Below, piece after piece: positions 41,467 through 44,559 of a DNA stretch of 44,813 nucleotides (the first letter of the stretch is position 1; every line of letters begins with the position of its first letter). Source of the stretch: Acidobacteriota bacterium (GTDB taxonomy: Bacteria > Acidobacteriota > Blastocatellia > UBA7656). The translations under genes and the position numbers were made by a program. The stretch is from assembly GCA_038040445.1 (NCBI GenBank), contig JBBPIG010000027.1:1-44813 (forward strand). Direction: 5' to 3'. The notes below the pieces were generated by a model. The model searched no databases. It was not told the DNA's origin and worked only from the letters and a program-made list of their open reading frames with translations.

Positions 41467-44400
41467 TTAACTGCTGCTTTTCGCGAACCACAAATGCTTC
41501 GGGGTTACGGACGGCGACAGCAGATGAAGAGTTACTCCCTCCAGATCGGCCCGATGTGCGACGAAGCCCCGGCGGTGCGCCAGAAAAGCACACGGCGCGT
41601 CTTCGAGCAACAGCTTTGTAATCTCACGATAGATGCCGGCTCGTTGCTCGCGGTTCATCACCGAGCGAGCTTCGCCGGTCAAGCGGTCAACTTCTTCGCT
41701 TGAATAGGTGCTGATGAACAGATCGCGATTGCATGAATTGAACAGCACGTAAGTGAAGTTGTCTGGATCAGGATAGTCGGCGTACCAGTCGCGGCCGGCG
41801 ATAGGCACCGTACGCAGTCTAAGCCCGCGCTCCATCTCCTCGGCCTCAACATACCGGAATTCAGCGCGTATGCCTACCTCGGCGAGGTCTTCTCTCAAGC
41901 ACTCAACAGCCGAGCTGACTGACTGTGGCCACCATACTTCCGTTTCGAAACCGCCCTCGTATCCCGCGGCTGCCAGCAAGGCTCGCGCGCGGTCCGGATC
42001 GTAGGCGTAGCCGCGCTCGCCCGGGTCGTAGCCCAATATCCCGGGGGGTATCGGGCCAATGCTTAGCTCGGCCATCTCGCCGTACACCTCGCGCAAGAAA
42101 CGTCTGCGATCGATCGCAAGACAGATCGCCTGCCGCACCCGCCTGTCGGACAGCGGAGGCCGCTCGCAGTCAAAGACAAGCATGCGAGTCTGTAATTGCA
42201 CGGCTTCGAGCACCTGAATGTCCGCTGCCCGCTCCTTGAGCTCGCTCAGGTTGGTGAGCGGCAAATCGCTGACATAGTCAAGCTCGCCGCGCAGGAACGC
42301 CTCGAGTATCTCTTCAGCGCTGAGTCCGAAGTAGACGCTCAGCCGGTCAACGTACGGCAGCTCCGGATTCCAATAATTGGAAAACCGTTCGAGTTGCACT
42401 TCCTTGCCAAGCACGGGCTCGACCACGCGGAACGGACCCGAGCCTACGGGTCTAATCTCGAAATCAACCGCCGGCCGCTCAACCTCTTCGCGCGGGACTA
42501 TGTAAGTGTATTCAGTGCAAAGCGTCGAAAGGAAAAAGGCGACGGGTTGAATCAGCTCGAGTTTCAACACTTGCTCGGTAACGACCTGAACCCCGGCGAC
42601 GGAGTCAGCTTCGCCTGACATGAATTGCTCCGCGCCAAGCAGCGGTCTGAACGCCCACGCGGCGGCGTCTTCGTTTTGCCGCATCTGCCGCTCGAAGGAA
42701 TACTTGACGTCGTCCGAGCGCACCCGCCGCCCGTTATGGAACCGGGCGGACTCCCGCAAGTAAAAGGTATAAACACGGCCGTCGGGTGAGATCTCCCATC
42801 GTTCAGCTACTGCCGGTCGAATCTCCGCGCGCTCGCCGAACTGCACCAGCCCCTCAAAGATATTCGCCATCACGTCGACGCGCGACAGCGACGACACAGT
42901 TGCGGGATCCAGCGTCACATGCGAAGCCCGCAACGCGAACCGCAAATGACCGCCGCGTTCGGGCGCCGGCAAATGAAACGTCTCGACTTCGCGATTGAGC
43001 AGTTCAGCTTCGCGCACCAGAAGATCGACCGCGCTATTGATACCCGAGATTGAAGCTTGATTCCGGCTGACTACTTCCTTGATCGTTTCCACCGCGCGCA
43101 GGACCTGGTCTGCTCCGGCGGACTGTTCATCCGAAGCCGAGCGAATCTGTTCGACCGCCGTCGTCAGTTCTTCCATAGCCTCGGCAATCGATCGAGATAC
43201 TTTTGCCTGCTCGCGCGTAGCTCGACGCACCTGCTCGGTGAGCTCGCTCATGTGAAGTGCGCGCTCGCCGATGTGGCGCGAAGTGAGAGCTTGCTCGCTG
43301 GTCGCACGCTCGATGCCGCGTGCTTGTTGCCGCACCAGATCGGCGGCCTCGAGCACCGTGTGGCTCTCAGCCGCCTGAATCGCCGTCGAGTCAGCAATCG
43401 CTCTAATACGGGACGACGCGGCGTTCGTTTTGTCGCGTATCTCCGTGAGCAGCGCCGCGGCGCGGGATGCCAGATCAACGCCCTCATCCGCGCGCTGTCC
43501 ACCAACCGCGACGCGCTCGATCGTCTCTGTTACGTCTTCGCGCACCGCTTTTATGACCTCTTCGATCTCCCGAGTCGAGGCCGAGGTGCGCTCGCTCAAC
43601 TCCTTGATTTCGTCGGCGACGATGCGAAAGCCCCGGCCTTGCGTGCCCGCTTGCGCAGCGAGTATCGCCGCGTTCAACGCGAGCAGGTGAGTCCGGTCTG
43701 CAATCTCATTTATGACGTGGGTAACCTCTCCTATCTGGTCGGACCTCTTGCCCAGCCGGGTGATGGTTTCGGTCGCGGCGTCGATGGCGGTTTTTATCTT
43801 GGACACGCTGGCGGCAGTCTCCCCGACGAGTTGACTGCCTGAATCGGCCGAGCGTGCAACCTCGTCGGCGAGCATGGTTGTTTCGTTGACCGATTCGCCA
43901 ATACTCCGCGTCGAATTGTCGATCGCCTCCATGGCGCGGGCGGTCTTCTCCGCCGACTCTGCCAGCGCCTCTGTAGAATCGGCAACCTTACGCACGGTGG
44001 TCGCCATGTCTTCGATGGCGATCGCCGTCTCTTCGACAAACTGCGCCAGCTCGTCTGCGTTCTCGGACACCTGGTTGATCGAGGTCGCCATCCTCATCAC
44101 CGAGCTGGAAGTCGATTTAGATAGGTTCGAGAGAGTCTGCAGATTCTCTCCGACCGAGTGCATCGAAGCGTTGATTTCGGCAATTGAGCGCGAGGTCTCT
44201 TCGACTGACTTGGCTTCATCAAGTACGCCGGCCGAGAGCATCTGTGTTCCACGCAGCACTTCTCCGACGACTGCTTCGATTGAGTCAGCGGCGCGTTGAA
44301 GTCTCCCGACTATGTAGCGCAAACGGCGGGCTAGCCCATCGAGGTTGATGAGCAGTTGTCTGTCTCTTCCGGCCAGCTCCAGGTGCTTCCCATTGGCGAG

Positions 44401-44559
44401 CACGCTGAGATCGCCCTGGGCTATGTGAGCCAGCGCTTCGAAGATGCGCTCACCTGAGTCCTGTGCCTCACTGTCGCTGGCGGAACGAGGTTTGTCGCTG
44501 GGATTGCGATCCAGGGCTACTGGTCGCGCGTCGATAGTTGTCTGGCGCGGGTCCTTCAT
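41467..44559 (-). CDS. Fusion: soluble methyl-accepting chemotaxis-type signalling domain plus family-5 solute-binding domain
   Basis: 1030 residues from ATG 44559 (TTG at 44565 is possible; neither has a Shine-Dalgarno). Residues ~40-95 look HAMP-like ([15 protein letters not shown] then [20 protein letters not shown]). Residues ~100-525 are a continuous coiled coil with an MCP hairpin tip at ~285-330: [20 protein letters not shown], then [20 protein letters not shown]. From ~535 the protein becomes a whole SBP_bac_5 (oligopeptide/nickel-binding type) domain: [81 protein letters not shown] and [12 protein letters not shown]. No signal peptide or transmembrane helix is visible. Tip residues normally Glu and Arg (AAxEAARAG) are Leu and Gln here. 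Probably a cytosolic ligand sensor. Confidence 0.88.

Follow-up and report, generated by a model that had tools for sequence, protein, structure and literature searches.

The window analysed here, i.e., the whole stretch of 44,813 nucleotides that makes up positions 1 to 44,813 of contig JBBPIG010000027.1 of an Acidobacteriota assembly (GCA_038040445.1), encodes a protein that we read, with a probability of about 0.6, as a soluble chemoreceptor in which a cytoplasmic SBP_bac_5 sensor ends the signalling hairpin and passes ligand binding on to CheW and CheA, with a non-flagellar output. The fusion of the two parts is a real and conserved variant of the cytoplasmic chemoreceptors. Its features are as follows.

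41467..44559, (-): whole gene, MCP coiled coil plus SBP_bac_5, 1030 aa (P0001)
44368..44481, (-): HAMP-like helix-connector-helix, residues 27-64, with invariant Gly49 (model and alignment)
43651..44367, (-): signalling hairpin, N-terminal arm, residues 65-303, 239 residues (model helices and Pfam)
43627..43683, (-): hairpin tip, residues 293-311, canonical Glu and Arg replaced (alignment)
42982..43650, (-): signalling hairpin, C-terminal arm, residues 304-526, 223 residues (model)
41470..42963, (-): SBP_bac_5 ligand-binding domain, residues 533-1030 (Pfam, alignment, model and Foldseek)
41755..41787, (-): 11-residue motif, residues 925-935, holding Asp928 (alignment)

A receptor coil and a binding domain in one frame

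The gene runs from an ATG at 44559 to a stop at 41467-41469 in one continuous frame of 1030 residues. Two Pfam domains score far above their cut-offs: MCPsignal at residues 249-407 (140 bits vs 34.6) and SBP_bac_5 at residues 579-943 (261 bits vs 32.4), the latter covering profile positions 1-364 of 368. This bears out the original prediction, made from the sequence alone, of an MCP coil running into a complete SBP_bac_5 domain. By Pfam the N-terminal half is the MCP coil, and the DNA-binding domain that opens SgrR-type proteins is absent. The prediction also held that signal peptide and membrane helix are missing, and it was right in this: over 19-residue spans, hydropathy peaks at 0.83 within residues 1-110 and at 1.43 beyond them, and there is no hydrophobic N-terminal segment that could belong to a signal peptide or a lipobox. 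Upstream of the ATG the frame is open for 9 codons only, and we therefore reject a membrane segment missed ahead of the annotated start.

We searched 396 genomes of the phylum and obtained matches at E values up to 1e-60 in 48 of them: the homologue is full-length in 29 genomes (the window's included) and incomplete or split in three (G230, G109 and G124), and in the other 16 only one half matches. An assembly join or a frameshift as the origin of the fusion is thus ruled out, since the same architecture recurs in 29 genomes. Nor are the homologues always two genes; coil and SBP lie in separate frames in G124 and L097, which are exceptions. The alignment used below (A1) holds 27 of the 29 full-length carriers, the omitted ones being L035 (G026) and L044 (G002, a near copy of L043); a second copy in G219 is also outside it. 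The frame of G026 is open over query positions 71-1026, and the TGA flagged there is probably the natural stop. The aligned members are 24-76% identical to the window protein (n=27), and all 27 have both MCPsignal and SBP_bac_5 matches. Carriers include Pyrinomonas methylaliphatogenes K22, Aminicenantes, Holophagales and other acidobacterial assemblies; one carrier assembly lies outside the phylum, in Archangiaceae, and may be a binning error. In the coil tree, 28 fused receptors form one side of a branch with a support of 94. Among the open-licence papers listed by our literature searches, no title or abstract opening names a chemoreceptor-SBP_bac_5 fusion, and no open-licence paper was retrieved for MCPsignal and SBP_bac_5 together.

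The single-chain AlphaFold2 model (mean pLDDT 77.5, pTM 0.60) places the turn of a helical hairpin at residues 303-305. Confidence is very low at residues 1-26, middling in the coil (10-residue means of about 40-88, falling below 50 at residues 156-178 and 433-455) and high in the SBP domain (74-98). The predicted SBP has the fold of peptide/nickel-binding proteins, and its best Foldseek match is the peptide-binding protein 8upi (TM 0.84 by target length, 30% identity to the SBP part). The N-terminal helix-connector-helix has an invariant glycine, and yet a Pfam HAMP match is absent in all 27 aligned members. Methylation-site patterns fit the window protein loosely at just two positions, residues 466 and 474. 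With about 32 heptads, the C-terminal arm is similar in length to 64H, the longest receptor class named in PMC8235581.

The modelled linker between coil and SBP spans about six residues. MCP signalling coils are antiparallel hairpins in which input normally enters at the HAMP-side end, away from the tip. The original prediction had stressed that sensor and signalling part come in reverse order. This is true in sequence only, where the SBP is C-terminal to the coil: because the coil pairs antiparallel, its C-terminal end sits at the HAMP-like end. The model thus predicts that the SBP is attached at the tip-distal end of the coil, where other receptors receive their input.

The ligand can be narrowed down from the alignment. 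Asp928 aligns with Asp408 of DppA, which presumably anchors the amino group of the peptide, and is invariant (27/27), as are Trp925 and Phe935. DppA Arg355, presumably the carboxylate anchor of that protein, has no counterpart in the alignment, so that a dipeptide held in the manner of DppA is not implied and a longer peptide or another amine is possible. A peptide would be the most likely class of ligand on these sequence grounds. Of the two ligands suggested beforehand, a peptide or a metal chelate, the invariant aspartate favours the former and nothing favours the latter.

Cellular location and related fusions

The N-terminus divides the family. The window protein and the four other aligned members of its class have no N-terminal hydrophobic segment (5/27), nor have six further copies, five of them from the same class (four of the same family and the second G219 copy) and one, L095, whose class is not established. 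The remaining 22 aligned members, all outside the window's class, begin with two hydrophobic segments separated by a loop of 3-11 residues (start codons were picked by hand for this comparison), the second being weak in 6 of the 22 (hydropathy 1.36-1.59). Summed over these 22 proteins, 66 lysines and arginines precede the pair, 14 lie in the loop and 93 fall within the 20 residues that follow the second segment. Both outer flanks of the membrane hairpin are positively charged, and by the positive-inside rule its topology is therefore N-in/C-in. It follows that coil and SBP are predicted to be cytoplasmic, whether the protein is anchored or not. The five aligned members that have no hairpin group together in the SBP and coil trees (support 99), which fits a single loss of the hairpin or, the family being unrooted, its gain elsewhere; neither tree includes the divergent second G219 copy.

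Sister fusions also argue for a cytoplasmic SBP. The window's own genome (G000) encodes, on contig C11 (L015, 3303-8939, (-)), a protein of 1879 aa that joins a Ser/Thr kinase and AAA_16 to two SBP_bac_5 domains, and G219 has four further kinase-AAA_16-SBP proteins. Two SBP_bac_5 domains also occur in a protein of G063 (L192, 996-6323, (+)), together with AAA_16 and a Trans_reg_C DNA-binding domain. We built a quick tree of 62 SBP domains, which has several long branches; it separates 29 MCP-fused and 2 kinase-fused domains from 31 others, mostly secreted, with a support of 97, and nests the kinase-fused domains within the MCP-fused group at a lower support of 86. Together with the membrane-hairpin topology, the kinase and DNA-binding fusions support the intracellular sensing that had been proposed.

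In the same tree, the 25 rows labelled secreted include L158 and L134, from Chloroflexota. Their SBP_bac_5 domains follow 277 and 77 in-frame residues, respectively, and a signal peptide is absent from the stretch viewed; these are perhaps other intracellular fusions.

Receptor tip, kinase partners and output

The tip of the hairpin is unusual. Leu300 and Gln303 occupy what we take to be the positions of Glu385 and Arg388 of Tsr. In Tsr, these tip residues make contacts with CheA and with other members of the trimer. The loss of both, noted in the original prediction, extends to all 27 aligned members: the first position is Ile (17), Leu (6), Ala (3) or Phe (1), never Glu, and the second is Gln (26) or Asn (1). 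Other tip residues are kept, Leu293, Asn296 and Phe311 in 27/27 and Gly305 and Gly308 in 23/27. One lineage (L046-L048 and L050) retains the fusion with the rest of the tip strongly degraded, in genomes that hold 1-3 CheW domains.

Relatives that consist of the receptor only (L075-L078 and the myxobacterial L108 and L144) share the same long coil, at 31-37% identity, and the same kind of tip; by our reading they differ in having a membrane-spanning N-terminal sensor part of their own and in ending right after the coil. Some adjoin cheW or pilus genes. Among the 14 receptor-only relatives scanned, 13 have this kind of tip (LNAAIIAAQAG in 12, LNASILAAQAG in one), and in the fourteenth the tip pattern was unmatched. 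L076 and L078 adjoin a cheW gene; L075 has genes for a pilus-type ATPase and platform protein nearby, and eight CheA and CheW queries found no cheW there. By these alignments the altered tip is a trait of the receptor group, and since it is common to receptors encoded beside cheW, it is by itself no sign of signalling independent of CheA. The suggestion that the altered tip points to signalling outside standard arrays is thus unsupported.

CheW occurs in all 29 carriers vs 203 of the 363 other genomes of the phylum (the three partial carriers being counted with the others). The proposed check for neighbouring cheW and cheA genes gave a divided answer. The same eight queries detected neither gene in the 27 fusion loci, which span 8.5-19 kb each, and did recover the cheW genes of the control loci L076 and L078; this absence favours a role outside arrays, and the presence of CheW in every carrier does not. 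An MCPsignal search found two receptors in the window's genome, the fusion and a HAMP-PAS-GAF-PAS receptor on contig C1 that adjoins CheW and CheA genes and whose tip keeps Glu and has His in place of Arg. A second CheA-CheW pair lies on contig C15 (L017, 6014-8775, (-)) with no receptor gene beside it.

Within the class, this second kinase tends to co-occur with the fusion. The fusion is present in 9 of the 48 genomes of the window's class, and a CheA of the C15 type (aligning from residue 40 or earlier to residue 732 or later of the C15 protein, in one or two neighbouring pieces) occurs in 8 of these 9 vs 2 of the 39 non-carriers (Fisher p 1e-6, shared ancestry ignored). The one carrier without it is G396, whose genome is 92% complete, and the two non-carriers with it, G025 and G075, gave no MCPsignal match. 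Genes that look by eye like ribH and/or nusB precede the CheA gene in the window's genome and in G009, G331, G401, G086 and G075, and do not in the loci read from G397, G219 and G025. In P. methylaliphatogenes (G086) the sole MCPsignal match is the fusion, and the genome has one CheA. Of its four CheW-domain matches, two are proteins made of that domain alone, one is weak and one is this CheA, which also has Hpt and HATPase domains. The receptor-less pair of contig C15 would most likely be the partner of the fusion in the window's class.

The pathway probably acts on type IV pili or on some other behaviour that needs no flagella. A flagellin match occurs in 1 of 33 carriers (P. methylaliphatogenes) vs 115 of 392 genomes of the phylum, and among genomes with CheW in 1 of 29 carriers vs 97 of 203 others. 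P. methylaliphatogenes is described in PMC4644332 as non-motile though most flagellar genes are present. PilT is present in all 33 carriers, a count that covers carriers only.

A cluster search of 36 neighbourhoods, 27 of them with the whole or part of a fusion gene, gave only local synteny among the matches listed. Genes named by eye as alanine dehydrogenase-like and acetyl-CoA hydrolase-like recur in at least four loci and a DUF711-like gene in at least five. No opp/dpp transporter genes were recognised on reading L016 or among the nine window proteins scanned; an ABC ATPase most like those of amino acid transporters lies 6-7 kb from the fusion.

Two further observations concern these loci. 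Past the window's end (L016, 9892-13749, (+)), an M20 peptidase gene is followed by genes for an apparent lipoprotein, an apparent permease and that ABC ATPase. A RelA/SpoT-type gene neighbours the fusion in at least four loci of three families (L060, L063, L072 and L080), three of them confirmed; this proximity may be due to chance.

The explanation that we prefer has the following steps. A small molecule bearing a free amino group, most probably a short peptide from uptake or turnover, would bind the SBP and close its two lobes. With a linker of only about six residues, lobe movement would be passed to the HAMP-like end of the bundle, opposite the tip; in turn, the tip would alter the activity of the CheW-CheA kinase. 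What we observe is the conserved fusion, the lack of export signals in the window protein, the kept Asp, the co-occurrence with CheW and with the C15-type CheA and the rarity of flagellin among carriers; the cytoplasmic topology, the peptide as ligand, the mechanical coupling of SBP to coil, the CheA partner and the output are inferred from there.

Alternatively, the coil may no longer talk to CheA and serve as a cytoplasmic scaffold, or as a ligand-controlled coil with another partner, the MCP tip being a relic. The replacement of Glu and Arg in every aligned member, the further decay of the tip in one lineage and the 27 loci devoid of cheA and cheW genes point in this direction; against it stand the conservation of other tip residues, the same kind of tip in receptors encoded beside cheW, the presence of CheW in all 29 carriers and the sole receptor match beside one CheA in P. 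methylaliphatogenes. We consider this reading unlikely, though it is the strongest of the competitors. It is more doubtful still that the SBP is past ligand binding and has become a module for dimerisation or for docking, e.g., to an ABC permease. The SBP of the fusion has no known ligand, and its sequence varies widely by lineage (24-36% identity to members outside the class, for whole proteins); against this stand the near-complete profile match, the confidently modelled fold and the invariance of Trp925, Asp928 and Phe935.

The least probable alternative, to which we give very little credence, is that of an exported protein active in the periplasm, its coil forming a stalk outside the cell. 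The periplasm is the normal place of SBP_bac_5 proteins, and a hydrophobic segment opens many of the homologues. However, such a segment is absent in the examined members of the window's class, elsewhere it is one of two with positive charge on both outer flanks, and the related SBPs occur in fusions with kinases and with a DNA-binding domain. On the same topology and sister fusions we reject secretion of the fusion protein by an unspecified route, which the original prediction had left as an option. A cytoplasmic receptor acting through CheW and CheA is the reading that we retain.

Relation to known systems and significance

Transporter-type binding proteins are known for signalling outside the cell, where they partner with receptors. 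The fusion shares with the DppA/OppA-type peptide-binding proteins (nearest solved structure 8upi) the fold, the full domain and the Asp at the amine anchor of DppA, and differs from them in having no export signal and in being joined to an MCP coil. Known examples of cytoplasmic chemoreceptors use CZB, PAS, GAF or globin domains as sensors. In the window protein and the members of its class examined, the MCP part has no transmembrane segments, as in these receptors, and the soluble coil recalls TlpD and the cytoplasmic arrays described in PMC3964821. The fusion differs from them in that its sensor is a complete transporter-type SBP and that many of its relatives keep a small membrane hairpin.

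A C-terminal SBP_bac_5 domain is also the sensor of the intracellular signalling proteins SgrR and DsvR, the latter with an N-terminal HTH according to PMC13060122; in both cases the output is DNA binding. A close relation to SgrR is unsupported: against NCBIfam, the window SBP scores 164 bits with DppA and 41 bits with SgrR, and the fusion thus probably arose independently of SgrR. The precedent of SgrR and DsvR for an intracellular SBP_bac_5 sensor makes the fusion less surprising; the combination with a chemoreceptor, the relatives with a membrane hairpin and the genome with a single receptor make it more so.

In the fusion, a transporter-type binding protein has been built into a chemoreceptor and is predicted to face the inside of the cell, in many lineages of one phylum. 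That a whole group of receptors does without the Glu/Arg pair raises the question of what this pair at the tip is needed for. More broadly, and tentatively, since we rate the whole of this proposal somewhat below even odds, Acidobacteriota may have made the SBP of peptide transport an intracellular sensor module of chemoreceptors, Ser/Thr kinases and DNA-binding regulators, so that the internal peptide pool would steer surface behaviour and, in P. methylaliphatogenes, would be the sole input of a pathway with one receptor and one kinase. This cultured thermophile offers a minimal natural pathway in which to test how ligand-driven closure of the lobes controls a CheA kinase, and the fusion opens the question of whether bacteria that have no flagella can be guided by nutrient signals arising inside the cell.
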